Assembly (NCBI GenBank): GCA_013153635.1
Contig: JAADDZ010000009.1
Coordinates: 1 to 64,000 of the forward strand
Direction of reading: 5' to 3'
Source: Aquificota bacterium
Lineage (GTDB): Bacteria; Aquificota; Aquificia; Aquificales; Hydrogenothermaceae
Length of the DNA: 64,000 bases
Positions 34,917 to 49,262 of this stretch are shown piece by piece. The first letter of the stretch is position 1. Each line of letters starts with the position of its first letter. Made by a program: the position numbers and the translations under genes. Under the pieces are notes generated by a model that worked only from the letters and a program-made list of their open reading frames with translations, made no database searches and had not been told where the DNA came from.

Positions 34917-35888
34917 ATGAGAAAAATACTATCAACCGCAGTTTTAGGTGTTGCCGCTCTATCATTAGCAATACCAATGACTGCTGAAGCTAAAAAAGAA
35001 AGAAAATCACCACCAGCTCCATTCCTTATCTGGGTAGATGATGCTAAACCTCTCGTAGGAAATGCAGATATAAGGTTTATATGTAGTGATGGTGAGAAAA
35101 AATGTGAAAAACATATCCCAGGTTCAGCTATAACTTCAGCTCACGACTTACATTACCTTAAAGACATAAAAGAATGTAACGGACTACCTATGTGTAAAGA
35201 AAGAGCAGAAGAGTTCATAGGAAAAGAGTTAGGAGTAAGTAATGATATGACTGCTATAGCTTACGATGACGGTAGAGGACCAAACGCATCAGGAGTATGG
35301 TACTTCCTATATCTATACGGGTTAGATGCAGACAAAGGGCAAACAAAAATGCTAGATGGTGGACTAGCAACTTGGGAAGCTAAAGGTTACCCCTTAGAAA
35401 CTGGACACCCAAAAGTTGAGCCTAAAACATTCAAAGCGAATATAAGATGGGACATCTTAGCTACCAAAGAAGAAGTACTAAAGGCTATAAAAGACAAGAA
35501 AAACTACATAATACTCGACGCAAGAAGATTCCAAGAGTATGTAGGTAAAGCTCTACTAAAAGCTGAATACGAGCCGGGAAAAGAGATACAAGTTAAAAGA
35601 GGTGGACATATACCCGGAGCTGTGTTCTTCGAATGGAAGAAAGTCGCAGGAAACCCTGCTGGAAAGCCCGGAAGACCTTTATTCAAACCACTGAAAAAAC
35701 TCAAAAAATACTTTACAAAAATCGGTGTAACTCCAGAAAAAACTGTTATCACATATTGCCACGTAGGTACAGGTAGAGGTTCATTCGTATTCGCCGCATT
35801 AAAACTAATCGGACATGAAAAAGCTAAAGTGTATGTAGGTTCTTGGGACGAATGGGGTAACGACCCATCACTTCCAATCGAAAAATAA
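34917..35888 (+). CDS. Periplasmic two-domain rhodanese (thiosulfate sulfurtransferase)
   Basis: A 323-aa protein with a signal peptide (about 1-25, cleavage near AEA-KKE) and two rhodanese domains. The N-terminal one is non-catalytic (about 35-165; ISACE-like region with CSDGEKKCEKH). The C-terminal one (about 180-320) has the active-site loop with Cys281 in TYCHVGTGRG. It transfers sulfane sulfur from thiosulfate to a thiol acceptor in the periplasm. The true start is the ATG at 34917 with AGGAGGT upstream; an open frame runs up to 34635 but would place the signal peptide internally. It has four additional cysteines near 56-93. It is the first gene of the sulfur operon. Confidence 0.9.
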   Translation: MRKILSTAVLGVAALSLAIPMTAEAKKERKSPPAPFLIWVDDAKPLVGNADIRFICSDGEKKCEKHIPGSAITSAHDLHYLKDIKECNGLPMCKERAEEFIGKELGVSNDMTAIAYDDGRGPNASGVWYFLYLYGLDADKGQTKMLDGGLATWEAKGYPLETGHPKVEPKTFKANIRWDILATKEEVLKAIKDKKNYIILDARRFQEYVGKALLKAEYEPGKEIQVKRGGHIPGAVFFEWKKVAGNPAGKPGRPLFKPLKKLKKYFTKIGVTPEKTVITYCHVGTGRGSFVFAALKLIGHEKAKVYVGSWDEWGNDPSLPIEK

Positions 35889-35894
35889 CCTAAG

Positions 35895-35920
35895 AGCCGA
35901 CCTCAAGGTCGGCTTTTTTT
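35895..35920 (+). terminator. Rho-independent terminator or attenuator after the rhodanese gene
   Basis: AGCCGACCT and AGGTCGGCT form a 9-bp stem with a 2-base loop, followed by a run of T (35914-35920). Because the next gene starts 15 bases later with its own ribosome-binding site and no promoter is seen, read-through from the rhodanese promoter is likely. It would lower expression of downstream genes. Confidence 0.85.
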
Positions 35921-35935
35921 ATGGAGGGTTAAAAA

Positions 35936-37063
35936 ATGGAACACACACATGCGTTAATAATGGGAATAATCACAGGAGCTCTTTTTGGAATAGTCCTACA
36001 TAAAGTAGGAGCTATAAGATACTCAAGAGTCGAAGGAATGCTCTTACTAAGAGACCTAAAAATCATGAAATTCGCCTTTATGGGAATAGCTACCGCATCA
36101 ATAATCTACGGTTTGACCCATATACTTGGTTTAGCAGAAGCCCTAAATATCCACCCAAGAGTACTTCCATACATGGGAATAGCCCACCTAATTGGAGGTT
36201 TCTTGTTTGGTATAGCAATGGCTTCAGCTGGTTTTTGTCCCGGTACATGTGTAGCAAGGGTAGGTGCAGGAAAATGGTTTGCGGCGGCTGGAGTGATAGG
36301 ATTGGTACTAGGAATAATAATCTACAGTATGATACAGCCATCACTAGTAGAAGCTGGAATATTAGGGCAGAAAGAGAAAATAACCTTGTACGGTCTACTA
36401 GGGATACCTTATGGTGTTTTAGCAGTAGTATGGGGAATAGCATTTATAATATTCACCATAATCGCAGACTGGTTTGACCCAGCTAAAAAATATGAACAAA
36501 AAGAAAATAAAAGCTTATTTCAAGCTATAAGAGGAGAGTGGCACTGGTTACCATCAGGTATCTTTGCAGGATTAATAATTACATGGGCAACTATGCAAGG
36601 AGAGTACTTAGGATTTTCTGGAGCTACCTTAGCTTTAGTTGGTTGGATAGCTCACTCAATAGGTCACCCTTTACAGATTGTTCCAAACATAAACGAAACT
36701 ATTATGTGGCATACAGGTTTGATAATAGGAGTATTACCCGGAGCATTTTTAAGTGCAATTCTTTCAAAAACATTCAAATTTGACGCAGTTCCTCCTCCTT
36801 TTGCAGTAGCAGTTACTCCAATACCTTGGGTTAGATTAGTACTTGTATTCTTTGCAGGCATATTTTTAGCCCTTGGGGCAATGATTGGAGGTGGTTGTAC
36901 AACAGGAGCATTCCTTTCAGCATATCCAACTCTATCAGTAGGACCAATGGCTATGTCTGCAACGTATTTTGCCATTGGAGTACTAACTGCAAATCTCATA
37001 TATTTCGGTAGATGGAGCAGATTTGTACAAGCCAAAAAAGCGGCAGACGAGGTTTATGATTAA
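35936..37063 (+). CDS. YeeE/YedE (TsuA-type) thiosulfate transporter
   Basis: A 375-aa polytopic membrane protein with duplicated sulfur-transport modules. Cys-containing motifs are GFCPGTCVARVG near residue 99 and GGGCTTGAFLSA near residue 320; these cysteines line the pathway in the TsuA family. The family imports thiosulfate or sulfur-containing anions across the inner membrane. About nine hydrophobic segments are visible. Placement between two rhodanese genes supports a role in moving thiosulfate or sulfane sulfur. It could alternatively move a persulfide-type intermediate. Confidence 0.85.
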   Translation: MEHTHALIMGIITGALFGIVLHKVGAIRYSRVEGMLLLRDLKIMKFAFMGIATASIIYGLTHILGLAEALNIHPRVLPYMGIAHLIGGFLFGIAMASAGFCPGTCVARVGAGKWFAAAGVIGLVLGIIIYSMIQPSLVEAGILGQKEKITLYGLLGIPYGVLAVVWGIAFIIFTIIADWFDPAKKYEQKENKSLFQAIRGEWHWLPSGIFAGLIITWATMQGEYLGFSGATLALVGWIAHSIGHPLQIVPNINETIMWHTGLIIGVLPGAFLSAILSKTFKFDAVPPPFAVAVTPIPWVRLVLVFFAGIFLALGAMIGGGCTTGAFLSAYPTLSVGPMAMSATYFAIGVLTANLIYFGRWSRFVQAKKAADEVYD

Positions 37064-37085
37064 ATAATTAAAAGAGGTGGAAAGA

Positions 37086-37223
37086 ATGAGTATGATAGAG
37101 AGGGTTCTATATTGGTTAGCAATAGTTATACTTATTATTGGACTTATCGGACTAAAAACCCAAATCTCTGAATTAGAGAAAAAAACCAAGCAAGTTCAAA
37201 CAGAACTCCAAGAAGGAGGTTGA
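37086..37223 (+). CDS. Small single-TM protein in the sulfur operon, 45 aa
   Basis: The ORF MSMIERVLYW... has a GAGGTGG Shine-Dalgarno, a TM helix (about 7-23) and a charged, coiled-coil-like tail (ISELEKKTKQVQTELQEGG). Its stop lies within the ribosome-binding site region of the next gene, 5 bases before that ATG. Short size, good start signals and an operon position between two membrane-associated sulfur proteins make it a credible membrane peptide. It may be a partner of the transporter or the next protein. Confidence 0.65.
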   Translation: MSMIERVLYWLAIVILIIGLIGLKTQISELEKKTKQVQTELQEGG

Positions 37224-37228
37224 TTATC

Positions 37229-37723
37229 ATGAATCCAAAAATAGAAAGAGCCATATACATAGGGCTTATTGTAGTTCTAGCTGGTTTACTTGTAAGTTTT
37301 GGGAAAAAAGAGATAGAACTCCAAAAACAGATACCAGTTACAGCAGAAGAGCTTTACAAAAAATTAGCCAATCCTAACATAAACATTCAGATAATAGATG
37401 TGAGACCCTATGAACCAGAAGACGAAGATTACGAAGATGAGTATCTCTACTATACAGATATTCACCTACCGGGAGCTATTCCTCTTCCAGACTGCGATGA
37501 ATCTAAAGCTCCAGAAGAAGCTCTAGACCAGATAAACCCATACGCACCAACTATCATAGTATCAAAAGATGGGGACCCAGAAATATTCAAGAAATGTGCG
37601 AAAAAATTTAAAATAGCTCAAAACTTAGAAGGTGGAATAGAAGCATGGGACGATGCTGGTCTTCCTACAGAAGACGGAGAGTATGAACCACCAAAAGCAG
37701 GTGGCGGAGGTGGTTGTTTATAA
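37229..37723 (+). CDS. Membrane-anchored rhodanese-like protein with C-terminal Gly5-Cys-Leu tail
   Basis: A 164-aa protein with a TM helix (about 7-26), then a rhodanese-fold domain with IIDVRPYEPED, DIHLPGAIPLPD and NLEGGIEAW. The active-site loop reads IIVSKDGD, so the catalytic Cys is missing; Cys residues instead lie at PDCDE, FKKCAKK and the very C-terminus, ...AGGGGGCL. The glycine-rich Cys-ending tail resembles the flexible sulfur-carrying arm of SoxY (GGCGG), although the fold is unrelated. The ATG at 37229 is chosen because AAGGAGGT ends 8 bases before it, over an in-frame TTG at 37220. I infer a sulfur-carrier or scaffold role. Confidence 0.8.
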   Translation: MNPKIERAIYIGLIVVLAGLLVSFGKKEIELQKQIPVTAEELYKKLANPNINIQIIDVRPYEPEDEDYEDEYLYYTDIHLPGAIPLPDCDESKAPEEALDQINPYAPTIIVSKDGDPEIFKKCAKKFKIAQNLEGGIEAWDDAGLPTEDGEYEPPKAGGGGGCL

Positions 37724-37727
37724 CAAG

Positions 37728-37757
37728 TAGGGTGGTCAGCCACCCTATAATTTTCTT
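37728..37757 (+). terminator. Intercistronic hairpin before the molybdoenzyme genes
   Basis: TAGGGTGG and CCACCCTA form a perfect 8-bp stem with loop TCAG, followed by the weak U-tract TAATTTTCTTT. It may act as a partial terminator or as an mRNA stability/processing element between the sulfur-transfer genes and the molybdoenzyme genes. Confidence 0.65.
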
Positions 37758-37791
37758 TACTTAACGAAATTAAATTCAGGAGGTAAGTTTA

Positions 37792-40719
37792 ATGGCTCTT
37801 TCAAGAAGGGACTTTTTGAAAGCCCTTAGCGCGGCGGGAGCAGGGATAACCTTAGGAGGAAATGCTTCATTTGCCAAAGAAGCAGTATGGGTAGAAGACC
37901 CAAGAAGCTCTTATCCTAACACTTCATATACAGAAAACTTATATAGAAAAGAGTTTGCCTACACTTATGGAAAAAAAGAAGAACACGGAACAGCTTATCA
38001 CTGTGTAAATTGTCAAGGGAACTGTGCTTGGGATGTATGGGTAGACAGTGGTATAGTAACAAGGGAGAATCAAGTAGCAAACTATACACCAATAAACCCA
38101 AAAATTCCAGATTTTAACCCTAGAGGGTGTAACAAAGGAGTACAGCACTCCCAAATTATGTATGAAAAAGATAGAGTTTTATACCCTTTAAAAAGAGTAG
38201 GAGAAAGAGGGTCTGGTCAATGGAAAAGAATAACATGGGACGAAGCAGTAACAGAAATAGCCCAAAATATATATAAAACGATGTTAGAGAAGGGACCAGA
38301 AGGTTTATATATCCATGTAGGTTCAGGAATGCTTACTGAAGCAAGAGCCGCTTCAGGTAAAAGGTTAGGTACACTTCTTGGAGCGGTAAGACCTTACATA
38401 GCCTCATATGTAGGAGATATGTTCCAAGGAGTATCAGTAGTTTATGGAGAAGGAAATATAGGTTGTTCTTGGGACTTTCAGTATGTTACAGATGTTCAAG
38501 TGTACTGGGGAATGGACCCAAACAAAACAAGAATCCCAGATGCCCACTTTGTATGGGAAGGAAAATACAACGGTTCAAAAGTTATAGTTATAGCACCAGA
38601 ATTCAATGCTACTGCTACTCATGCAGACCTGTGGATACCTGTAAAAGCAGGATACGATACATTTTTAGCAATGGCAGTTATAAACGAAATAATACAGAAA
38701 AAAATGTATAAAGAAGGATTTGTAAAGGTATTTACAGACCTTCCTTTCTTGGTAAGATTAGACGATAAGAAACTCCTTAGAATGTCAGATATAGATATAG
38801 AAAATCCTTCAGCAGAGTTTGATGAAGAAATTTATAAAGTTTTTGAAGAAAAATCAGAAGGAAAAGAATTTGAACCAGAAGCATGTTTCTTCTGCTGGAA
38901 TACAAAAACAAATAAACTAACATTGATGCCGGGTACAGAAGGTTGCCCGATACCAACTCTTAGATTAAAAGATGTAGGTTGGGATATAGACCCTGCATTA
39001 GAAGGGACTTGGGAAGTTACACTAAAAGATGGAACAAAAGTAAAAGTTACTACAGTGTTTGAACTTCTAAAAAAAGAAGCTGAAAAATTTTCAGCAGAAA
39101 AAACATGGAAACTCACAGGAGTCCACCCTACAGTAGTAGAACAGTTAGCAAAAGACATGGCATTAAACAAAGTAGTTGAGTTAAATGTTGGATTTACCCT
39201 TGGTAAATACTTTAATGGACTTTTAGCACATAGAGCGGTTGCATCAATACCCGGTCTAATTGGGAAATTAGGACCTTACGGTGGACTGAACACAGAAAAC
39301 GAATGGGCAATATCAGGCATGGGCAAACTGTCTGGGTTTGCTGGAAAATACATGTTTAGATTTGCATCAGGTTTTGTAAGTGAGTTTGTCTTAGGTAATG
39401 TATTCAAAGATGCAGAAAAACTATACGATGAAGAAGATGTTAAAAGAGCAACTGGATTATCAAAAGACGAATATTTCAAAAGAGTAAAGGAAACCTTAGA
39501 TAACTTTGGAACAGACGAAAAATGGAAAGAAAATCTGCACAAAAAAGATGGAAAACCTTACTGGAATACAGTAGAAACATTTTTAATCTTTGCAGATTCT
39601 AGATTCAGAAGAAACAAAGGTACAACTTATAAAGAAGCTTTCCTAAAAAAAGCTAAATTCTTTGCCTATGTAGACTTTAGAATGAACTCCACCGCCCAAT
39701 ATGCTGACATCGTTCTACCAGCGAAATCTCACTATGAAGTTTGGGACTTGAGAACAAATCCCGGTTATCATAGATATGCTAATCTAGCTCAACCACCGTC
39801 AAATCTAAAGCCTGTAGGAGAAGCAAAATCAGAATGGGAAATCTGTACACTTATAGTAGAAAAACTACAGGAAATTGCACTAAAGAACTTTGAAGAAGCA
39901 AAGAAAAAAGGAGATAGCAATCCCGAAAGATTTATAAAAATACCAGACCCAACTCACAGTAAAACAGGATACAGAGAACTAGATAAATTAGTAGAAGAGT
40001 ACACGTTAGGTGGAAAATTAAGAACCGATAAAGATGCAGTTGAGCTAGCACTTGAAAGTGTAGACCAGTTTAAACCAAACACCATAGAATCTATGAGAAA
40101 AAGAGGCGGATTCTTGATGTTAAATGATAAAGCTGGAAAAACCTCACCTCTTTATCCTGACAAACCTTACAGCTCCTTTGAAAATAACCTATTTTTATTT
40201 GAAAGATTTGAAACCCTATCTGGAAGGCTAACTTACTATGTAGACCACGAATTATGGATAGAATTTGGAGCGGCTCTCCCAACAGCAAAAGAGCCGATAA
40301 GACCTAAAAGGTATCCATTTATCCTAATGTCTCCTCACGCTAGATGGTCAATACACTCAACATACAAAACATCAAAAATACTCCTTAGACTACAAAGAGG
40401 AAAGCCATACATAATGATAAATCCAGAAATTGCTAAGAAAAAAGGAATAAAAGATGGAGATGAAGTAAAAATATTTAATGCCCTTGGTGAATTTTATGCC
40501 ATGGCAAAACTCTATCCATCTGCTCCAAAAGATGCAATTATTATAGAGCATGGTTGGGAACCTTTCTTCTTCAAGAACAATAAGTGTCACAATGAAGTGG
40601 TAGGAGACATGCTAAATCTTCTAGAAATGTCAGACGGTTGGGGACACTTAAAATTTGGTGGAAATTGGGACGGAAACCAACATGCATTTGAAACATCAGT
40701 AGATATAGAAAAAGCATAA
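37792..40719 (+). CDS. Type II molybdopterin oxidoreductase catalytic subunit (NarG/EbdA/SerA-like)
   Basis: A 975-aa protein with a twin-arginine signal peptide (SRRDFLK, about 1-28), so exported folded. The FS0 cluster motif is His70-x3-Cys74-x3-Cys78-x34-Cys113. His in first position and the x34 spacing are exactly those of NarG and mark type II enzymes (EbdA, DdhA, SerA, ClrA, PcrA, NarG). Asp209 in VGDMFQG is the best candidate for the Mo ligand. The C-terminal region carries the cofactor-binding domain (LMSPHARWSIHSTY). The substrate cannot be told; the sulfur-gene context suggests a sulfur oxyanion, but nitrate, selenate or chlorate relatives exist. GGAGGT lies before the ATG. Confidence 0.85.
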   Translation: MALSRRDFLKALSAAGAGITLGGNASFAKEAVWVEDPRSSYPNTSYTENLYRKEFAYTYGKKEEHGTAYHCVNCQGNCAWDVWVDSGIVTRENQVANYTPINPKIPDFNPRGCNKGVQHSQIMYEKDRVLYPLKRVGERGSGQWKRITWDEAVTEIAQNIYKTMLEKGPEGLYIHVGSGMLTEARAASGKRLGTLLGAVRPYIASYVGDMFQGVSVVYGEGNIGCSWDFQYVTDVQVYWGMDPNKTRIPDAHFVWEGKYNGSKVIVIAPEFNATATHADLWIPVKAGYDTFLAMAVINEIIQKKMYKEGFVKVFTDLPFLVRLDDKKLLRMSDIDIENPSAEFDEEIYKVFEEKSEGKEFEPEACFFCWNTKTNKLTLMPGTEGCPIPTLRLKDVGWDIDPALEGTWEVTLKDGTKVKVTTVFELLKKEAEKFSAEKTWKLTGVHPTVVEQLAKDMALNKVVELNVGFTLGKYFNGLLAHRAVASIPGLIGKLGPYGGLNTENEWAISGMGKLSGFAGKYMFRFASGFVSEFVLGNVFKDAEKLYDEEDVKRATGLSKDEYFKRVKETLDNFGTDEKWKENLHKKDGKPYWNTVETFLIFADSRFRRNKGTTYKEAFLKKAKFFAYVDFRMNSTAQYADIVLPAKSHYEVWDLRTNPGYHRYANLAQPPSNLKPVGEAKSEWEICTLIVEKLQEIALKNFEEAKKKGDSNPERFIKIPDPTHSKTGYRELDKLVEEYTLGGKLRTDKDAVELALESVDQFKPNTIESMRKRGGFLMLNDKAGKTSPLYPDKPYSSFENNLFLFERFETLSGRLTYYVDHELWIEFGAALPTAKEPIRPKRYPFILMSPHARWSIHSTYKTSKILLRLQRGKPYIMINPEIAKKKGIKDGDEVKIFNALGEFYAMAKLYPSAPKDAIIIEHGWEPFFFKNNKCHNEVVGDMLNLLEMSDGWGHLKFGGNWDGNQHAFETSVDIEKA

Positions 40720-40733
40720 AAAGGAGGTAAACA

Positions 40734-41846
40734 ATGTCAAAAAGACAATTAGCAATGGTAATGGATTTAAATAAATGTATAGGTTGCCAGACCTGTACAG
40801 TTGCCTGCAAAACCCAATGGACTAACAGAAATGGTAGAGAATATATGTATTGGAACAATGTAGAAACAATGCCCGGAGAAGGTTACCCTAGAGGTTGGAT
40901 GGAAGCAGGTGGAGGATTCGATGAACAAGGAAATCTGCAAGATGGAGTGATTCCAGACTTAGTACATGATTACGGAGTGCCATGGGATTACAACCATGAT
41001 GAACTATTTGAAATGGACTATCTAAAACCAGATGGAGACCCAGTTTGGGGTCCTAACTGGGACGAAGATGTAGGAGCAGGAGATTGGCCTAATTCTTACT
41101 ATTTCTATCTTCCAAGGATATGTAACCACTGTTCAAACCCCGGTTGTTTAGCCGCATGTCCAAGAGAAGCCATATTCAAAAGAGAACAAGATGGAATAGT
41201 TCTTGTAGACCTTGATAGATGTCAAGGGTATAGATACTGTATAGCAGGTTGTCCTTACAAAAAGATTTACTTCAACCCAAAGCTTTCAAAGTCAGAAAAA
41301 TGTATATTCTGTTTCCCAAGAATAGAAAGAGGTCTTCCTCCAGCTTGCGCACATCAATGTGTAGGAAGAATAAGATGGGTAGGCTTTTTAGATGATGAAG
41401 AAGGACAGATATACAAACTAGTTCACAAATATAAAGTAGCTCTACCATTAAGACCAGATTTTGGTACTCAACCAAATGTATACTATGTTCCTCCAGTACT
41501 TAGCCCACCAAAATTTGATGATGAAGGAAAACTAATAGAAGGAGAAATTACAGGAAGAGTTCCAATCGAATTTTTAGAAAAACTCTTTGGACCAGAAGTT
41601 CATAACGCTATAAAAACTCTAAAAGAAGAGATGGAAAAAAGAAAAAACGGAGAAGAATCAGAGCTAATGGACATACTTATCGCATACAGTCATGCAGATA
41701 TGTTTAGACTAGATGAAAAATACTATCAGGATTTAGCATCAGAAAAAGGATTAAAAGGTACAGAGTTCTTCAAAATCATTGACCACAGATACATTGCAGG
41801 AGCTAATACAAATAAGGAAGAAGTAAAGATATACTTCGAAAAATAA
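40734..41846 (+). CDS. Iron-sulfur subunit of the type II molybdoenzyme (NarH/EbdB/SerB-like)
   Basis: A 370-aa FeS protein with four cluster motifs: CIGCQTCTVACK (about 16-27), CNHCSNPGCLAACP, CQGYRYCIAGCPYKK and CIFCFPR...CAHQC. In the third motif Tyr replaces a Cys, as in EbdB, while NarH has Trp there; this predicts a [3Fe-4S] cluster. Electrons would pass from Mo through these clusters to the gamma subunit. There is no signal peptide of its own, so it is expected to be exported with the catalytic subunit by the Tat system. The start has AGGAGGT 6 bases before the ATG, and the ORF begins 14 bases after the catalytic subunit. Confidence 0.9.
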   Translation: MSKRQLAMVMDLNKCIGCQTCTVACKTQWTNRNGREYMYWNNVETMPGEGYPRGWMEAGGGFDEQGNLQDGVIPDLVHDYGVPWDYNHDELFEMDYLKPDGDPVWGPNWDEDVGAGDWPNSYYFYLPRICNHCSNPGCLAACPREAIFKREQDGIVLVDLDRCQGYRYCIAGCPYKKIYFNPKLSKSEKCIFCFPRIERGLPPACAHQCVGRIRWVGFLDDEEGQIYKLVHKYKVALPLRPDFGTQPNVYYVPPVLSPPKFDDEGKLIEGEITGRVPIEFLEKLFGPEVHNAIKTLKEEMEKRKNGEESELMDILIAYSHADMFRLDEKYYQDLASEKGLKGTEFFKIIDHRYIAGANTNKEEVKIYFEK

Positions 41847-41851
41847 AATTG

Positions 41852-41868
41852 AGGGGAGAAACTCCCCT
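41852..41868 (+). repeat. Intercistronic hairpin between FeS and gamma subunit genes
   Basis: AGGGGAG-AAA-CTCCCCT forms a 7-bp perfect stem. TTGTTAACAA, a 10-bp palindrome, follows at 41868-41877. No T run follows, so it is more likely an mRNA stability or processing element than a terminator. It lies in the open frame upstream of the gamma ORF, which argues that the frame from 41849 is not translated. Confidence 0.6.
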
Positions 41869-41899
41869 TGTTAACAATATAGCGAAGGAGGAAAAAAGA

Positions 41900-43090
41900 A
41901 TGAAAAACTTGGTAAAAACAGCTCTTCTTGGAGTTGTTTCTACATCACTGATTATTAATGCATCAAAAGCAGATATTAAAACCTTTTTCAAATACGAAGT
42001 TCTACCCTCTAAACAGATAAGTCAATCTGTACCGTCAGACCCAAGAGATGAGTTATGGAGTATGGTTCCGGGGAAATACGTCTTCTTTTATCCTCAAATA
42101 TCTGTAAGATTAAATGATGCTGATGCTAACAGAGTAATTCCTAAAAAGCGCCTTCAAAAAGCTCTAGTTAAAGTCGTTTATAACAGTGAAAACATAGCTG
42201 TTTATATAAGATGGAAAGATAGAACCCCTTCTATCCAACCAGTTTATACAACAAAAGCCTTTGGAGATGGCATAAGTGTAGAATTTCCAAATGATTTTGG
42301 AGCAGGAAAAACACTTCCGTATGTAGGTATGGGAGACTTAAAACACCCAGTAACAGTTTATTTACAAAAAACGGTAGCTGGGAAAGATTATGAAAAAACA
42401 TTTATATCAGAAGGATTTGGTACCTTAACAGAGATTACAGAAAACGGAGTATCCATGGAAATGGATTACGATAAAGCTAAAAGAGAGTGGATAGCAGTTA
42501 TAAAAAGACCTTTAAAAACCAAAAATAGTGACTTAAGAGCAGGATTAGTACCTATAGCGTTTGCTATATGGAACGGCTCTCAACAGGAAAGAGATGGAAA
42601 TAAATCTCTATCTAGATGGAAATTTATAAGATTAAAAAGCTACAAAATAGATAAAGAATATCTAGCCTATATCTCATGGGGAGATATGATTCATAAAGAA
42701 GCTGACCCAAACAGAGGGAAAAAACTAACAATCCAAAATGGGTGTAATGCATGTCATATATATGACGACCAGAGAACAGCACCTTTAGATATGGCTCCAG
42801 ACCTTTCTAACATTGGAGGTATCGCCCATGCTCCATATCTTAAAGAGTCATTAGTAGACCCAAACGATGTGATAATAAGAAATCTTAATCCAAATAGACA
42901 TTACAATAAATTTGCCCAACCAGACAAAAACGGTGCATATCCAAATAATGACATGTACACATGGTATATAAAAACTCCTGATGGAAAAATACAGTCTAAG
43001 ATGCCTTCTTTTAGTCATCTATCAGAACAAGATATAAAAGACATAATTGCATATTTAAAAACGTTAAGAAACTGGAGAAACTTTAAGTAA
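41900..43090 (+). CDS. Gamma subunit (ethylbenzene dehydrogenase heme-b type) fused to cytochrome c
   Basis: A 396-aa secreted protein with a Sec signal peptide (about 1-24, ASKA-DIK). The first domain (about 30-250) carries EB_dh-family motifs: PYVGMGDLKHPV (Met144, the probable heme-b ligand), a RPLKT segment with candidate Lys ligand, and FAIWNGSQQERDGNKSLSRW. The second domain (about 265-396) is a c-type cytochrome with C282-N-A-C285-H286 and a C-terminal Met in KMPSFSHLS as axial ligand. Known EbdC, DdhC and SerC proteins contain only the first domain. The fusion would hand electrons to a downstream acceptor by two hemes. The ATG at 41900 has AAGGAGG 8 bases upstream. Confidence 0.87.
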   Translation: MKNLVKTALLGVVSTSLIINASKADIKTFFKYEVLPSKQISQSVPSDPRDELWSMVPGKYVFFYPQISVRLNDADANRVIPKKRLQKALVKVVYNSENIAVYIRWKDRTPSIQPVYTTKAFGDGISVEFPNDFGAGKTLPYVGMGDLKHPVTVYLQKTVAGKDYEKTFISEGFGTLTEITENGVSMEMDYDKAKREWIAVIKRPLKTKNSDLRAGLVPIAFAIWNGSQQERDGNKSLSRWKFIRLKSYKIDKEYLAYISWGDMIHKEADPNRGKKLTIQNGCNACHIYDDQRTAPLDMAPDLSNIGGIAHAPYLKESLVDPNDVIIRNLNPNRHYNKFAQPDKNGAYPNNDMYTWYIKTPDGKIQSKMPSFSHLSEQDIKDIIAYLKTLRNWRNFK

Positions 43091-43104
43091 AAAGGAGGCA
43101 AAAG

Positions 43105-43554
43105 ATGAAAATAATGAAAAAACTTTTGATTTCACTATTATGGTTAGCTTTTTTAACTAATGTCCCTTTAAATCAAGCTATTGCCCAAGAAGAAACCCAA
43201 GAAGCAACTTCAGATGAAGAATTAGAAGAAGTAGAGATTTACAGCGGAGTGATTACTGCAAAATCCTGTGCAGAAAAAGCTCAAGAGACAGGAGAGTTTG
43301 AAATCCTAGCTAACTGCCCTCCTATAGAAGCGGCAAAATCTGGTTATGTTATATATGATGTTACCGAAAACAAATTTTATGTGCCAAAGCTAGGTAAAAT
43401 ATATCTCTTTGAACTAGATGAAGGGTTTGGCGGTAGTATAGATATTACCGGAGTTATTGTAGGAGAAACTGAAGACGGAATTCCTATAATAGACCCTGAA
43501 GAATATGAAATAACTCCAAAACCAAAACCGGGATTCTTCAAAGGTTGTTTATAA
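43105..43554 (+). CDS. Secreted 149-aa protein ending in Gly-Cys-Leu
   Basis: Signal peptide (about 1-27, AIA-QEE), an acidic linker (EETQEATSDEELEEVEIY), then a small domain with Cys residues near 55 (AKSCAEK) and 70 (ANCPPIE), and a proline-rich tail that ends GFFKGCL. No recognised family. The last three residues are identical to those of the rhodanese-like protein at 37229, and both genes flank the molybdoenzyme set. An AAGGAGG ribosome-binding site is present. I infer a periplasmic partner that carries or receives sulfur on the terminal Cys, but no known homologue is recognised. Confidence 0.7.
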   Translation: MKIMKKLLISLLWLAFLTNVPLNQAIAQEETQEATSDEELEEVEIYSGVITAKSCAEKAQETGEFEILANCPPIEAAKSGYVIYDVTENKFYVPKLGKIYLFELDEGFGGSIDITGVIVGETEDGIPIIDPEEYEITPKPKPGFFKGCL

Positions 43555-43557
43555 CAT

Positions 43558-43587
43558 ATGGGGCGCTAATGCCCCATTTTTATGTTT
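43558..43587 (+). terminator. Rho-independent terminator of the type II molybdoenzyme operon
   Basis: ATGGGGC and GCCCCAT form a 7-bp stem with loop GCTAAT, followed by TTTTATGTTTT. It separates the first molybdoenzyme operon from the second. Confidence 0.85.
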
Positions 43588-43747: not shown

Positions 43748-44383
43748 ATGAGATTAGGTTTTTTGGTAGATTTGAGTAGGTGTATGGGGTGCATGGCTTG
43801 TGCAGTGTCTTGTAAAGCAGAGAATAATGTTCCTCTAGAGAGCTGGAGACTAAGAGTTAAATATATAGACCAAGGAGAGTTTCCAGAAACAAAAAGACAT
43901 TATGTTCCCCTTAGATGTAACCATTGTGAAAATGCACCTTGCGAAAGGATATGTCCTGTATCAGCACTTCACTATCTCCCAAATGGAATTGTAAATGTAG
44001 ACCATACAAGATGTATAGGCTGTGCATCGTGTATGATGGCTTGTCCATACAATGCCATATATATAGACCCTCTTACAAATTCAGCTGATAAATGTACCTA
44101 CTGCGCTCATAGGATAGAAGTTGGGTTAATGCCTGCATGTGTTGTAGCATGCCCTACACATGCCAATATTTTTGGAGACCTTGATGACCCAGAGAGCGAA
44201 ATATCCAAATATCTTCAAGAACATAGAGATGTGATGGTTAGGAAACCAGAATTAAATACAAAACCGAAACATTTTTATGTGAGAGGTTCTACTGTTGCAC
44301 TTGACCCTCTTGCTTCAGAAAGACCAGAAGGGTTTACCCTGTTTACAGAAGTAAAATTCTTAGAACATATAGGAGGGCATTAA
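43748..44383 (+). CDS. Iron-sulfur subunit of Psr/Sre/Ttr-type molybdoenzyme
   Basis: A 211-aa ferredoxin-like subunit with four [4Fe-4S] motifs: CMGCMACAVSCK (about 12-23), CNHCENAPCERICP, CIGCASCMMACP and CTYC...CVVACP. All cysteines are present. This is the PsrB/TtrB/SreB type. It would transfer electrons between the catalytic subunit and the membrane anchor encoded next. GGAGGG lies before the ATG. It begins the second molybdoenzyme operon. The gene order FeS, anchor, catalytic differs from the classic PsrABC order. Confidence 0.92.
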   Translation: MRLGFLVDLSRCMGCMACAVSCKAENNVPLESWRLRVKYIDQGEFPETKRHYVPLRCNHCENAPCERICPVSALHYLPNGIVNVDHTRCIGCASCMMACPYNAIYIDPLTNSADKCTYCAHRIEVGLMPACVVACPTHANIFGDLDDPESEISKYLQEHRDVMVRKPELNTKPKHFYVRGSTVALDPLASERPEGFTLFTEVKFLEHIGGH

Positions 44384-44384
44384 A

Positions 44385-45266
44385 ATGTTGGGAGCAGAAG
44401 TAACCTTTGATGTGGCACTGCCAAAAGTAGTGTGGGGGTGGCTCGTTTCTACTAATATGTGGGCAAAGAGTATATCTACAGGAGCGTTCTTTGTTGGACT
44501 TTATTTTATAAAAAAATATCCAGACCAAGATGCATTTTTTAGAAAGTGGTTGCCAATATTAGGACTTATTTTTATTGGAATTACATTACTAGTTACTATA
44601 TTAGACCTTCACCATATGTTTAGATTTTGGAAAATATTTTTATTTGCTCATTTTACTTCAGCAGTTACATTAGGAGCTTGGGTAGTATCTGCTTATGTAT
44701 TGATACTTCTCATAGCTTTTTGGTCTTGGGTCACAGGTAACAGAAAACTCTTTGATAGAGTAGTTATTCCCGGATTTATATTCGCATTTTTCTCTACTAT
44801 TTATACAGCTGGAATATTAGGTCAATCTACAGGAAGAGAAGTATGGATATTTTCAGCAGAGATGATTTCTATGCTCCTTAGTGCTACTTTAGCAGGTTCA
44901 GCGGCTTATCTATTAATAGGTTCTATCTATGGAAGTTTAAATGAAAAGATGAAAAAAGAGCTTGGATATATACTTTTTGGAAGTGCAGGTTTACTTGCGG
45001 CGATGTTTATCGGAGAACTTGTATTTGCAAAAATGCACAGTGAATATGCAGAAAAAGTTGTAGAAATATTGGCATTTGGCGAAGTAGCCCCTTGGTTCTG
45101 GGGAGGAATGTTCTTAGCATTTATCGTACCTATGGTTTTAGTTGGAATAGCTACAGAAAAGAGAAAATATGAGTATGCACTATTAGGCTCTATTAGTGCG
45201 CTTGTCGGACTTTGGCTTATAAAACATGCATGGCTAATAGCTCCTCAATCATTACCATTAAGTTAA
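44385..45266 (+). CDS. NrfD/PsrC-type quinone-interacting membrane anchor
   Basis: A 293-aa polytopic protein with about eight TM helices and the NrfD family pattern (LDLHHMFRFWKIF near 79-91). It exchanges electrons with the menaquinone pool and anchors the periplasmic FeS/Mo subunits. It begins 1 base after the FeS gene stop, indicating coupling. The first molybdoenzyme operon has no such anchor, so it may use a soluble cytochrome instead. Confidence 0.9.
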   Translation: MLGAEVTFDVALPKVVWGWLVSTNMWAKSISTGAFFVGLYFIKKYPDQDAFFRKWLPILGLIFIGITLLVTILDLHHMFRFWKIFLFAHFTSAVTLGAWVVSAYVLILLIAFWSWVTGNRKLFDRVVIPGFIFAFFSTIYTAGILGQSTGREVWIFSAEMISMLLSATLAGSAAYLLIGSIYGSLNEKMKKELGYILFGSAGLLAAMFIGELVFAKMHSEYAEKVVEILAFGEVAPWFWGGMFLAFIVPMVLVGIATEKRKYEYALLGSISALVGLWLIKHAWLIAPQSLPLS

Positions 45267-45285
45267 TCAAGGAGGGAGATAAAAT

Positions 45286-48200
45286 ATGAGATTATCAAGA
45301 AGAACTTTTTTAAAAGGTAGTGCGGCTACGATAGGAGGAATAGCTTTAGCTAAAGGGGTTTTCTCAAAAACTCAACCTTCTGCTGTAGCACAAACTAATG
45401 AAGAAATAACATTTACTCCAGAAAGGCTTGACTATTATCCACCATTTGATAAATGGAACAACTGGAGAGAACCTGATGGAGACTATTGGAAGCTCAAAGG
45501 TGGTGCCTTAAGAGATGGGGTAAAAATGATAAATTACATGCTGGTTCCAACGGTATGTAACAACTGTGAGGCGGCTTGTGGTCTTACAGCATGGGTAGAC
45601 AAGGATAACCTTGTAGTAAAAAAATATATGGGAAATCCTTTCCATTCTGGTTCTAGAGGAAGAAACTGTGCAAAAGGCTATGCTACTCAATCCCAGATGT
45701 ACGACCCAGATAGAATTCCTTTCCCTTTAAAAAGAGCGCCTGGTTCAAAAAGAGGAGAAGGAAAATGGGTTAGAACTACTTGGGACGAAGCCTTAAAAGA
45801 TATAGCAAAAAAACTAAGAGAAGCTATTTCTAGTGGAAGTGAGCTAGAGAGAAAGATGATAATGTACCACGTAGGTAGACCTAACGAATCTGGAGGATTT
45901 ACTGCTAGAGTTGTTTGGACTTGGGGTGGAGACCATCACAACTCTCATACAAATATATGTTCTTCTGGAGGTAGATTAGGAGGAATAGCTTGGTCTGGAG
46001 ACGATAGACCTTCTCCGGATTTTGCAAGCTCAAGATTGATATTTTTGTCAGCCTCTCATGCGGCAGATGCAGGTCACTATTACCAACAGCACGCAGGATA
46101 TATAGCTGATGCGAGAGCCAAGGGTGCAAAACTTGTAATAATGGACCCAAGACTTTCAAACTCTGCTGGATTAGCAGACTTATGGATACCTGTATGGCCC
46201 GGTACAGAAGCCGCAGTATATCTATCAATGATAAGTAGACTTCTACAGGAAGACAAATACAACAGAAAATTTATGGAAAGATGGGTAAACTGGAAAACAT
46301 TCCTTAGAGATAAGGACTATCTCAACTATCTAAAAGATAACGGTTTTATATCAAAATTTCCTGAAGGAGAGACTTTTGATGATTTTATCGCTGTTTTAAA
46401 AGAAATCTACGCTCCATATACTTTTGAATGGGCTTCTAAAGAAACAAAAGTACCTATATACAAGCTTGAAAGACTATATGAAATGATTTTATGGGCTGAA
46501 GATAGGATTACATCTTATTTTTGGAGAGCTCAAGCCGCAGGGAATAGAGGTGGTTGGCTAAACGCTGGAAGAACAGGATACTTTTTATTAATCGTAACAG
46601 GAGCTATTGGAGGAATAGGTGGAAATGGTTGGCACAAATGGCATGTATTAGGAGTAGGAGCAAAAGGTGGAAAAGCTACTTTAAAAGAAAAACCGGGTCC
46701 TGTAGATGATTGGAACGAACTCTTGTGGCCACCAGAATGGCCGTTATCTACTTACGAACTGTCCTTCCTTTTACCTCATCTATTGTCTGACGATGAATGG
46801 AGACAAAAATGGGAAAAAAGAGGTCTTAAAATTCCCGGAAAATTAAAATTATGGATTTCTAAGATATACAATCCAGTATGGATTAATCCAGATGGCTTTA
46901 GATGGATAGAGGTTTTGAGAAACGAAAATAAGATGGAGTTAACAGTAAATCTATCTCCTACTTGGTCAGAGACCAACTGGTTCTGTGATTATATACTCCC
47001 TGTAGGATTAGCTGGAGAAAGACATGACAACCAATCAGCAGAAACAAAACCAGAGAGATGGACTGCTTTTAGACAGCCAGTACTAAGAGTGGCTCTTCAA
47101 AAGATGGGGTGGAAGCCAAAAGTCCCTTGGAGAGCAACATTGGAAGCACACAAAAAAGCTGGTCTTGGAGAAGTATGGGAAGAAAACGAGTTTTGGATTA
47201 ATCTTATGTGGGAAGTAGACCCAGATGGTTCTCTAGGAGTGAGACAGTACTACGAATCAAAGAAAAATCCGGGTAAACCTGTAACTATAGAAGAGTGGTA
47301 TGATGCGGCGTTTGGTACTCTACCAAACTTGAGCAAGGTATGTCAAAAATTAGGAGTAACTCCTTATGAGTACATGAGAGATAGAGGTGCATGGACAGAA
47401 GAAACAGATGTGTACAACGTTCATGAAAGAGAACTCCCTTATGACCCTACAAAGAATGCAATAAAGTACAAAGGAAAATGGATACCTCTATCTGAATGTG
47501 AAATAGATGAAGATACAGGCGCAGTTTACCTAAAACATCACGGTGCAAGAGAATGGCATAGTGAAAGACATACTATAGCTGTTAAGAAAGATGGCAGATA
47601 CCTTCAAGGTTTCCACACACCTACAGGGGTGCTTGAGTTTTATTCAAAGACCTTTGTTGAGTGGAAATGGCCTGAATATGCGATACCTGTCTATCCTAGA
47701 GATAAAGAAGAGAGAAAGAAAATGGTTCATATAGTAACTCATGTACATCACGACTACATGACAGAAGAGAACGCTTTTGCTTTGAATCCAATATTCAGGC
47801 TTCCTTACAATATTCACACAAGGTCTGTAAATGCTAAATGGCTGATGGAAATCTCTCAAAACCATAACCCTATATGGATATATGAAGGTGATGCTAAAAG
47901 ATTGGGTATAAAAAGAGGAGATGCTATCAAACTTAGAGTAGTAGATACTGTTTCTGGTATAGAGGTTGGATACTTTGTGGGAATGGCTATTCCAACTCAA
48001 GCTACAAGACCGGGAGTTGTTGCGTGTTCACATCATTCTGGAAGATGGAGATTAAAAACTACCGTAAAAGTAGATAAATATGAGCTAGGAATATTAAGGT
48101 ATGGTTCAGCTCTTGCAGATATGAAAGAAGAAGGGTCTGTTAAAAAGATAAGATGGATAAAAGGTGTAGAAAGATTTAAGGTGGAAAAACAAGGTGATGA

Positions 48201-48552
48201 ATTTAAATGGCCTTATCCAGAATTTAATAAAGATATGGAGTTTGTTTGGTGGAGAGGAGATACAGGAGTATGGCAGAATTCTGTATTCCCTGCTAACCCA
48301 GACCCGTTATCTGGAATGCACTGCTGGCATAAAAAAGTTCTTATAGAAAAGGCTGGTCCAGAAGATAAGATAGGTGACGTAGTAGTAGATATAGAAAAGA
48401 CATTCAAAGTATATCAAGCTTGGAGAGATGTATTAACTAGACCAGCACCTGGTCCTAACTACCTAAGAAGACCAAAATGGTTCAAGAGACCTTGGTATCC
48501 ACACACAGATAAGTCTTATAGAATGCCAACTGGTGAATCTCACGGAGAGTAA
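45286..48552 (+). CDS. Molybdopterin oxidoreductase catalytic subunit, PsrA/SreA/TtrA-like
   Basis: A 1088-aa protein with Tat signal SRRTFLKG (about 1-36). The cluster motif is Cys91-x2-Cys94-x3-Cys98-x29-Cys128, and Cys225 in TNICSSGG is the candidate Mo ligand, as in the PsrA/TtrA/ArrA branch. The large size is closer to SreA, TtrA or SoeA than to the ~760-aa Wolinella PsrA. With the upstream FeS and NrfD subunits it should form a periplasmic, quinone-linked reductase or dehydrogenase for polysulfide, sulfur, tetrathionate or sulfite. Sequence alone does not settle the direction or substrate. GGAGGG precedes the ATG. Confidence 0.88.
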   Translation: MRLSRRTFLKGSAATIGGIALAKGVFSKTQPSAVAQTNEEITFTPERLDYYPPFDKWNNWREPDGDYWKLKGGALRDGVKMINYMLVPTVCNNCEAACGLTAWVDKDNLVVKKYMGNPFHSGSRGRNCAKGYATQSQMYDPDRIPFPLKRAPGSKRGEGKWVRTTWDEALKDIAKKLREAISSGSELERKMIMYHVGRPNESGGFTARVVWTWGGDHHNSHTNICSSGGRLGGIAWSGDDRPSPDFASSRLIFLSASHAADAGHYYQQHAGYIADARAKGAKLVIMDPRLSNSAGLADLWIPVWPGTEAAVYLSMISRLLQEDKYNRKFMERWVNWKTFLRDKDYLNYLKDNGFISKFPEGETFDDFIAVLKEIYAPYTFEWASKETKVPIYKLERLYEMILWAEDRITSYFWRAQAAGNRGGWLNAGRTGYFLLIVTGAIGGIGGNGWHKWHVLGVGAKGGKATLKEKPGPVDDWNELLWPPEWPLSTYELSFLLPHLLSDDEWRQKWEKRGLKIPGKLKLWISKIYNPVWINPDGFRWIEVLRNENKMELTVNLSPTWSETNWFCDYILPVGLAGERHDNQSAETKPERWTAFRQPVLRVALQKMGWKPKVPWRATLEAHKKAGLGEVWEENEFWINLMWEVDPDGSLGVRQYYESKKNPGKPVTIEEWYDAAFGTLPNLSKVCQKLGVTPYEYMRDRGAWTEETDVYNVHERELPYDPTKNAIKYKGKWIPLSECEIDEDTGAVYLKHHGAREWHSERHTIAVKKDGRYLQGFHTPTGVLEFYSKTFVEWKWPEYAIPVYPRDKEERKKMVHIVTHVHHDYMTEENAFALNPIFRLPYNIHTRSVNAKWLMEISQNHNPIWIYEGDAKRLGIKRGDAIKLRVVDTVSGIEVGYFVGMAIPTQATRPGVVACSHHSGRWRLKTTVKVDKYELGILRYGSALADMKEEGSVKKIRWIKGVERFKVEKQGDEFKWPYPEFNKDMEFVWWRGDTGVWQNSVFPANPDPLSGMHCWHKKVLIEKAGPEDKIGDVVVDIEKTFKVYQAWRDVLTRPAPGPNYLRRPKWFKRPWYPHTDKSYRMPTGESHGE

Positions 48553-48563
48553 TATAATTCTTG

Positions 48564-48586
48564 AGGGGGCTAAAAGCCCCTTTTTA
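48564..48586 (+). terminator. Rho-independent terminator after the PsrA-like gene
   Basis: GGGGCT-AAA-AGCCCC, followed by TTTTTATTTA. It sits between the catalytic gene and the chaperone gene 41 bases later, so the chaperone is made by read-through or from its own weak promoter. Confidence 0.82.
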
Positions 48587-48626
48587 TTTAAAATTTCTAT
48601 TGTAGTTTTAGATTAAAGGAGAAAAG

Positions 48627-49262
48627 ATGGGAACAGTAGAGGAAACACAAGCACGGGTTAATATGTATGGACTTTTGTCAAGACTTTTGATAGAAGAAGT
48701 TGATTTTTATACGCTAGAAAAAATCAAAGAAAATAAAGATTTACTTGATTTATTCCCTAAGACAAAAGAATGGGATTTATTTTGGGAAAAGGATACTCAA
48801 AAGCTTATAGAAGAAGACCTAAATGTAGATTTTACAACTATTTTTATTTTAAATGCTTACCCTTATGAATCAGTATTTGTTAATGATGAAGGTTACATAA
48901 ACCCAACGATAACAAACCCTACCCTTATGTTCTATAAAGACCATGGATACTCTATAGACCTTAATGAAACAAGAGCTTTATCTCCTGACCATATTGCAGT
49001 AGAACTTGAATTTATGATGAATCTTATACAAGAGGAACTAAACGCAATAGCGAAAGAAGATGAGGAAGAATTAAAAAGGATAAGAAATATACAAAAAGAT
49101 TTTCTTAAAGAACATCTTGCTAACTGGGGAACTATTTATCTACTATCAGCTAGGGAACTAGCTCAAACACCTTTTTACCAAGATGTTAGCACTCTTGCTA
49201 TGGAATTTTTATTAAACGATTACGAATATATAAATGAGCTTTTAGGTACTCAAAAAAATTAA
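48627..49262 (+). CDS. TorD/NarJ-family molybdoenzyme chaperone
   Basis: A 211-aa helical protein with the family motif PYESVF near residue 74 and SPDHIAVELEFM near residue 113. It binds the Tat signal peptide of a molybdoenzyme and guides cofactor insertion before export. It is the only such chaperone in the window, although two Tat-dependent molybdoenzymes are present. AAAGGAG precedes the ATG. Its stop overlaps the convergent fabZ stop by 4 bases, with no terminator between. Confidence 0.9.
   Translation: MGTVEETQARVNMYGLLSRLLIEEVDFYTLEKIKENKDLLDLFPKTKEWDLFWEKDTQKLIEEDLNVDFTTIFILNAYPYESVFVNDEGYINPTITNPTLMFYKDHGYSIDLNETRALSPDHIAVELEFMMNLIQEELNAIAKEDEEELKRIRNIQKDFLKEHLANWGTIYLLSARELAQTPFYQDVSTLAMEFLLNDYEYINELLGTQKN

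Follow-up and report, generated by a model that had tools for sequence, protein, structure and literature searches.

The locus described here raises the question of what a co-directional set of rhodanese-type proteins, a membrane channel and molybdoenzymes does in an Aquificota bacterium of the Hydrogenothermaceae, a family of major sulfur oxidizers in hot springs and vents. In a related Aquificae bacterium Sox genes are present, SoxC and SoxD being absent (PMC4912159). The window, meaning the whole stretch of DNA that was analyzed, covers 64,000 nt of contig JAADDZ010000009.1 (GCA_013153635.1), and positions are 1-based on its forward strand.

Extent and conservation of the gene block

Eight co-directional ORFs fill positions 34917–43554, and PsrB-PsrC-PsrA-TorD (43748–49262) form a further part of the conserved block in Hydrogenothermaceae; all genes lie on the plus strand. 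The order is rhodanese (rhodA), TsuA-like channel, 45-aa membrane peptide, rhodanese-like carrier (carr), Mo-alpha (moA), beta (moB), gamma (moC), GCL-tailed protein (p149), PsrB, PsrC, PsrA and TorD. Improved starts were chosen from the sequence with Shine-Dalgarno sites for the peptide (ATG 37086), the carrier (ATG 37229) and gamma (ATG 41900). A preliminary description of this DNA had counted nine genes at 34917–43554; eight are present, and the ORFs and profile matches bear out the families, motifs and export signals that it gave for the run. An upstream histidine kinase and a citrate-synthase-like gene were rejected as block members, since only two loci, both from the genus of the window, have them beside it.

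The twelve-gene order is kept in all 20 Hydrogenothermaceae loci examined, one of which no longer has the carrier. The core of eight genes also occurs in myxobacteria, one of which (L212) holds all twelve genes. Alpha orthologues were present in 11 of 195 Myxococcota genomes (58–65% identical), and the small TM peptide was found at each of the 10 Myxococcota loci searched. Because the order is the same in the 20 Hydrogenothermaceae loci and in Myxococcota, the gene set is more than chance, and it is near certain that the gene unit is real. The earlier suggestion of one system stands in that the genes are neighbors in every relative examined, the second phylum included; its extent has to be revised, the unit in the family being the eight-gene core together with PsrBCA-TorD. 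Contamination of the myxobacterial genomes is unlikely, given their GC-rich codons and the level of alpha identity.

No alpha orthologue was found among 347 Acidobacteriota (best match 35%) or in a sample of 398 Pseudomonadota (best match 40%), and neither carr nor p149 had a match in the plasmid collection. In a genome scan with an alignment query, the peptide pattern required CAW[DN] and missed most myxobacterial members, which have CAFE or CAWE; because such members were passed over, absence elsewhere carries little weight. As the preliminary description had supposed, no account of this set was found in the open-access literature, which lacks most subscription journals, and the twelve-gene block is apparently undescribed so far.

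Rhodanese-type proteins, channel and GCL tails

The first gene, rhodA (34917–35888), encodes a secreted tandem rhodanese (PF00581, 74.7 bits) with a Sec-type N-terminus, as judged from sequence, and the loop CHVGTGRG. This active-site loop is invariant as CHVGxGRG in 31 orthologues, as are Cys281-His-Val-Gly, Cys87 and Cys93, and the protein has the catalytic Cys of an active rhodanese. The following YeeE/YedE-family membrane channel (35936–37063) belongs to PF04143 (104 bits); against the NCBIfam TsuA model it scores 63 bits, short of the cut-off of 400. Its Cys101 and Cys105 are invariant in 31 orthologues, and Cys321 is present in 97%. YeeE-like SoxT proteins bring in sulfur for oxidation (PMC11582611). 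The 45-aa single-TM peptide (37086–37223) is kept at the same place in both phyla.

Two unrelated small proteins of the block terminate in GCL. The TM-anchored carr (37229–37723) matches PF00581 with 36.8 bits and has a rhodanese fold with no Cys at the catalytic loop, which follows the last strand. Three Cys are invariant, one of them in the tail, GGGGGCL, which reads GGGCL at its end in 31 of 31 orthologues. The absence of the catalytic Cys and the likely part of the invariant tail Cys as sulfur site had been overlooked in the earlier reading. The secreted 149-aa p149 (43105–43554) has no Pfam family; Cys55 and Cys71 are invariant, and all 29 orthologues end in FKGCL. Its body is tentatively modeled as an OB-like beta-barrel; there was no convincing Foldseek match, and Z scores to OB-type folds were merely middling. 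Both tails are predicted to be disordered, with low confidence in the models. Their codons vary across orthologues, and the residues preceding GCL are fixed inside each family and different between the two. GCL was rejected as a general signal, since no further ORF of more than 60 aa ends in this way at those GCL-stop sites of the genome that were inspected. The invariant tail Cys is likely the sulfur site, and carr is a candidate swinging-arm sulfur carrier, SoxY-like in function.

Two molybdoenzymes and their sulfur context

The profiles of the type II DMSO-reductase family match all three subunits of moABC, only that of moB being above cut-off. The Tat-exported, type II Mo-bisMGD catalytic subunit moA (37792–40719) scores 803 bits against TIGR03479, below the cut-off of 985, yet this is its full-length best match, and it has the motifs of a type II enzyme: an FS0 site starting with His (HCVNCQGNC) and the Mo-ligand motif GDM. 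The Fe-S subunit moB (40734–41846; TIGR03478, 530 bits) is a four-cluster beta subunit with 15 Cys invariant among orthologues, the clusters by homology probably being three [4Fe-4S] and one [3Fe-4S]. The gamma subunit moC (41900–43090) combines an EB_dh heme-b domain (PF09459) with a C-terminal cytochrome c (PF00034, motif CNACH), both above cut-off; against TIGR03477 it reaches 110 bits, below cut-off, yet again the full-length best match. Its CxxCH is invariant in 29 orthologues. Chlorate and selenate reductases likewise exchange electrons with cytochrome c, so the cytochrome c of gamma leaves the direction of the reaction unfixed.

In the tree, the alphas of the block group together as one long-stemmed clade (SH-aLRT 100%). 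Such a clade of its own, tied to the GCL-tailed proteins and holding none of the reference enzymes placed, is the outcome that the preliminary description had named as support. Identity of moA to chlorate, Ddh-like, perchlorate, ethylbenzene and nitrate enzymes is at most 41%. As a nitrate, chlorate, perchlorate or ethylbenzene enzyme moA was rejected, lying outside all these clades, and outside the selenate and Ddh-like ones too, in a tree whose SerA and DdhA placements rest on unverified sequences. In its sister clade, which may be Ddh-like, the genes follow an ABDC-type order. The nearest solved structures are those of perchlorate reductase PcrA (4ydd) and ethylbenzene dehydrogenase EbdA (2ivf).

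The second molybdoenzyme consists of the CISM-type Fe-S subunit psrB (43748–44383), the NrfD-type membrane subunit psrC (44385–45266) and the Tat-exported catalytic subunit psrA (45286–48552; 1088 aa). A TorD-family chaperone (48627–49262) closes the block; its position is kept in L212 as well as in the loci of the family, and its homologues are annotated TorD. Homologues of psrA (39–56% identical) were found in Sulfurovum, Thermomicrobium, Rhodococcus and haloarchaea. Genes adjoining psrA homologues are TusA and DsrE, or rhodanese and TauE/SafE genes; homologues without a Tat signal sit in sulfur gene neighborhoods. Two myxobacteria without PsrA carry a SorA-like sulfite dehydrogenase gene next to the core, immediately 3' of p149 in one (L237), and after an Mrp-type gene and with a SorB-like cytochrome in the other (L236); these SorA-like genes score about half of the SorA cut-off. 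Across nine myxobacteria psrA and SorA-type genes are complementary, which may reflect a single event, and several Hydrogenothermaceae carry both. Sox genes (homologues of SoxYZ, SoxXA, SoxB and SoxCD) are absent from the block. SoxY is encoded elsewhere in the genome in 14 of the 15 block-bearing family members and in 0 of 10 myxobacterial hosts, and SoxC above cut-off was found in no host tested.

Proposed pathway, rival explanations and known systems

That the block concerns sulfur is likely, and this part of the preliminary description is retained. Its proposal that the block oxidizes or reduces thiosulfate or tetrathionate is recast here as the oxidation of rhodanese-mobilized sulfane sulfur to sulfite and sulfate. 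Reading from sequence, we give a probability of roughly 0.45 to the block being one mostly periplasmic functional system, Sox-like but unrelated, that would oxidize carrier-bound sulfane sulfur to sulfite and then to sulfate. Direction, substrate, tail chemistry and every chemical step are what we infer. The secreted rhodanese would draw sulfane sulfur from thiosulfate or per/polysulfide and hand it on to the Cys in the flexible GGGGGCL tail on the membrane-anchored, catalytically dead rhodanese-fold carrier, next to which the YeeE/SoxT-like channel and the small peptide would carry sulfur or thiosulfate through the membrane. The tail would offer its bound sulfur to moABC for stepwise oxidation, with electrons passing from Mo through Fe-S, heme b and heme c to cytochrome c and a terminal oxidase; p149 might, as a guess, dock likewise as partner or relay. 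Released sulfite would be oxidized to sulfate by PsrBCA, quinone taking the electrons; in some myxobacteria the SorA-type sulfite dehydrogenase would do this instead, with cytochrome c as acceptor.

We know of no type II enzyme that acts on a protein-bound substrate. More tentative than the pathway as a whole is its strongest form, a Sox-independent periplasmic pathway that takes sulfane sulfur to full oxidation: C-terminal GCL arms, in two families for which such a role is not known, would hold the sulfur, and a type II DMSO-reductase-family enzyme would work on protein-bound substrate. If true, it would be a second, unrelated means of keeping sulfur on a protein arm during Mo-enzyme oxidation, carried out by a new functional clade among type II Mo enzymes. 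It would also suggest sulfur oxidation in some myxobacteria, hosts without SoxY, and GGGCL and FKGCL would be two simple marker tails for tracing the pathway in metagenomes. The tail Cys opens the idea to direct testing.

Known type II enzymes use small molecules, and moABC might directly oxidize a small sulfur compound in solution, making tetrathionate from thiosulfate or sulfate from sulfite, or attacking an organic sulfide the way DMS dehydrogenase does. The rhodaneses and channel would then only supply sulfur, and the GCL tails would keep the complex together or bind a metal. The perhaps Ddh-like sister clade with its ABDC-type order fits this, as does the fact that GCL alone is common to the two tails. 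We nevertheless consider it doubtful, as it gives no reason for the invariance of the carr tail, or for the retention in the two phyla of an inactive rhodanese fold, with its Gly-rich, Cys-bearing tail, next to an active rhodanese. A GCL end that serves as a C-terminal processing, lipidation or sorting signal instead of a sulfur arm would account for the last three residues shared by two exported, unrelated proteins; it is quite improbable, considering that carr and p149 each carry a signal for export or anchoring anyway, that the preceding residues are family-specific and that the GCL-stop sites inspected in the genome gave no other such ORF over 60 aa.

The block could also run reductively, with moABC or PsrBCA passing electrons to tetrathionate, thiosulfate, polysulfide or some other oxyanion. 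PsrB and PsrC resemble TtrB/NrfD-type subunits, the order psrB-psrC-psrA matches ttrBCA, and ClrA, fairly close to moA, is a reductase; however, an oxidative SorA-type sulfite dehydrogenase adjoins the core in two genomes, and the psrA homologues neighbor sulfur-oxidation-type genes, which makes this reading unlikely. The same sulfite dehydrogenase indicates sulfur rather than a selenium or arsenic species (e.g., thioarsenate or selenosulfate) whose chalcogen the rhodaneses would move. Chlorate is one of the oxyanions that moA relatives reduce, the YeeE/YedE family has a member in selenium metabolism, and there are weak matches to the rhodanese ExtH from a selenite/tellurite operon; with no arsenic or selenium genes seen in the block, such a substrate is very improbable.

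Compared with known systems, the oxidative pathway we favor shares parts with several. Like ClrABDC, SerABDC and DdhABDC, moABC has alpha, beta and heme-b gamma subunits and Tat export, with alpha 36–41% identical; unlike them, it lacks a delta gene between those for beta and gamma, its gamma is fused to cytochrome c, and its alpha forms a separate long-stem clade linked to rhodaneses, a channel and GCL proteins. PcrA and EbdA are 31–32% identical to moA and are placed elsewhere in the tree. The channel shares the PF04143 family and conserved Cys with TsuA/YeeE and SoxT, but the block has no TusA/YeeD-like gene. PsrBCA resembles SoeABC in its plan of Mo, Fe-S and NrfD-type subunits and in the sulfur context of psrA homologues, and differs in its B-C-A order and Tat signal, SoeAB being thought cytoplasmic (PMC8076601). 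As for SorAB, a SorA-like gene adjoins the core in the two myxobacterial loci, whereas none is present in the window's own block. The Sox system (SoxXA, SoxYZ, SoxB, SoxCD) is likewise periplasmic and has a Gly-rich Cys arm on its carrier, and by analogy the Mo enzyme of the block would oxidize the bound sulfane sulfur, but the fold of the block's carrier, the family of its Mo enzyme and its electron route bear no relation to Sox.

Organization of the block in the window and its relatives

The source genome measures 1.69 Mb, and the window is part of its contig 13. All eight genes of the preliminary description were found on the plus strand at the coordinates proposed there (34917-43554), with better starts at ATG 37229 for carr and ATG 41900 for the gamma subunit gene moC. 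The gamma subunit consists of a heme-b EB_dh domain fused to cytochrome c, and Carr, the second rhodanese-fold protein, lacks the catalytic Cys. G+C-rich hairpins lie in the gaps 3' of rhodA (35895-35914), carr (37727-37748), moB (41852-41868), p149 (43558-43577) and psrA (48563-48583), several of them with a T-rich run behind; partial termination or mRNA stabilisation by these hairpins may raise rhodanese and carrier over the enzyme.

Window proteins were mapped onto 20 fetched loci, all from Hydrogenothermaceae, the window's own family. The order rhodA, tsuA-like, 45-aa peptide, carr, moA, moB, moC, p149, psrB, psrC, psrA, torD was found at all 20 loci, with one gene loss at L081; torD fell beyond or partly beyond the fetched stretch in a few loci, and the peptide was present at the two where BLAST missed it. 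At this locus (L081:9394-11977, genome G097), carr and the start of moA were absent from an otherwise intact block, possibly a decayed copy. Because psrB-psrC-psrA-torD hold the same order in the family loci, the block runs on to 49262, and the earlier boundary after p149 was too narrow. Histidine kinase and citrate-synthase-like genes further upstream are restricted, as neighbours of the block, to the window's own genus, where tandem tsuA-like copies also occur (three at L062:12168-15601, two at L135:6988-9264, one in the window). At L068:7589-10545, L073:12694-13832 and L149 the reading frame of moA, of tsuA or of several block genes is broken, which may reflect sequencing errors of draft assemblies. 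In the co-occurrence check proposed by the preliminary description, the genes are neighbours in relatives, in Hydrogenothermaceae and, for the core, in Myxococcota; the block is almost certainly a conserved functional unit.

The molybdoenzyme and the block in Myxococcota

Perchlorate reductase (4ydd) and ethylbenzene dehydrogenase (2ivf) were the nearest solved structures to the alpha subunit, and chlorate reductase ClrA (36.5% over 97%) was its nearest match among annotated plasmids. Its identity to references was 25-41%, compared to 63% between two phyla within its own clade and 93% to the close relative G075 (deposited as 'Hydrogenothermaceae bacterium'). A separate clade of the catalytic subunit, the outcome that would support the preliminary description, was recovered in a tree of 53 sequences (100% SH-aLRT, stem of 1.1 changes per site), with an Oceanimonas/Rhodobacteraceae group as sister (95%), which we presume from gene order to be Ddh-like. 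The FS0 and GD Mo-ligand motifs of alpha and all 15 Cys of beta were conserved. Six further alphas (L175, L176, L177, L179, L181, L182), from Nitrospirota, Rokubacteria, Planctomycetota and Acidobacteriota, formed another unnamed type II Mo clade, sister to the chlorate/selenate-type group.

Scanning 84,980 species genomes, with a peptide pattern that missed most myxobacterial members, revealed one locus outside Aquificota, L150; its contig, recorded under Anaeromyxobacter sp., stops inside moC. Identities to the window were 51% (rhodA), 44% (tsuA), 39% (carr), 56-63% (moA) and 65% (moB); its Carr ends in SKAGGGCL, and a 44-aa one-TM peptide overlaps the start of carr. When the class and phylum of this genome were searched, alpha matches of 58-65% identity were obtained in 11 of 195 genomes. 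The myxobacterial loci share the core gene order, and the small TM peptide was present at all ten further loci. L212 carries all twelve genes, and L208 and L213 continue through psrB and psrC into psrA at the end of the fetched stretch; in G192, G229 and G191 psrA lies elsewhere in the genome, not adjoining the core (the contig carrying the core breaks off early in G191). Core-gene codons are GC-rich in the myxobacterial genomes. In a combined alpha and beta tree the myxobacterial group was nested inside the Aquificota group, beside L077-L080 (99% SH-aLRT), which suggests transfer of the core from Aquificota to myxobacteria, a reading to be taken with caution given the long outgroup branch.

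The GCL tails

The last three residues are GCL in both Carr and p149, two unrelated proteins. GGGCL was invariant in 31/31 Carr and FKGCL in 29/29 p149 sequences from both phyla, while invariant positions overall amounted to 15% and 12%, respectively. Tail codons vary in both, and the constraint therefore acts on the protein. In each protein the tail Cys and two Cys of the body are invariant, three in all. Among 51 sites of this genome matching a GCL-stop DNA pattern (less those of them that end in TGG, which is no stop), the only ORFs above 60 aa were carr and p149. AlphaFold models from these alignments gave confident bodies and low-confidence tails; the modelled Carr body has a rhodanese fold, and that of p149 is tentatively OB-like. 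In SoxY, a GGCGG arm serves as a swinging-arm sulfur carrier. A Gly-rich, disordered tail with an invariant Cys, on a rhodanese-fold domain without catalytic Cys, is what such a carrier would look like. We give even odds to the tail Cys being a covalent sulfur carrier, and propose only tentatively that MoABC acts on carrier-bound sulfur.

Accessory enzymes and relation to Sox

Two of the myxobacterial genomes that lack psrA have a gene for a Tat-exported SorA-like sulfite dehydrogenase (308-316 bits to the SorA model, cut-off 600) next to the core. In L237 it lies directly 3' of p149; in L236 it follows an Mrp-type ATPase gene and is accompanied by that of a SorB-like cytochrome. A third genome, G324, carries its SorA-type gene on another contig than the core. 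Across nine myxobacterial genomes, six had psrA without a full-length SorA-type match and three the reverse (Fisher p 0.012), a complementarity that may represent one event; several Hydrogenothermaceae carry both genes. On the simplest reading, the core would release sulfite in the periplasm, where PsrA or the SorA-type enzyme would oxidise it; sulfite as the core's product is somewhat favoured.

PsrA homologues 39-56% identical occur in Sulfurovum, Thermomicrobium, Rhodococcus and haloarchaea, the last three forms without a Tat signal; there the genes adjoin those of TusA and DsrE, or of a rhodanese and a TauE/SafE-type exporter. On a Sulfurovum mangrovi plasmid (L247:5874-9157), the homologue (56%) is unannotated and apparently frameshifted, in the order psrB-psrC-psrA-torD. 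Mrp/NBP35-family ATPase genes adjoin psrA homologues of Rhodococcus and haloarchaea (L249:8871-10040, L250:7897-9057, L251:8038-9192) and lie near p149 in myxobacteria (L236:1633-2535, L237:13386-14882, and a minus-strand copy after p149 in L211). A sulfite dehydrogenase described in Aquifex, SoeABC, is thought to face the cytoplasm (PMC8076601).

SoxY was present in 14 of the 15 block-carrying Hydrogenothermaceae genomes tested, no block host tested had SoxC over the cut-off, and a related Aquificae bacterium is reported to have sox genes without soxC and soxD (PMC4912159); the block is therefore a candidate for the missing sulfane-sulfur oxidation. In Myxococcota the block occurs without SoxY, which had no match in the ten hosts searched. 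SoxT proteins, which are YeeE-like, bring in sulfur that is to be oxidised (PMC11582611), and by this likeness a sulfur role would fit the tsuA-like gene. Overall, we assign a probability of roughly 0.85 to a role in sulfur metabolism, and consider an oxidative direction likely. Since its parts belong to known families and the proposed chemistry is a prediction from sequence, we rank the block as a variation on known systems: Sox-like in logic, yet not itself a Sox system.
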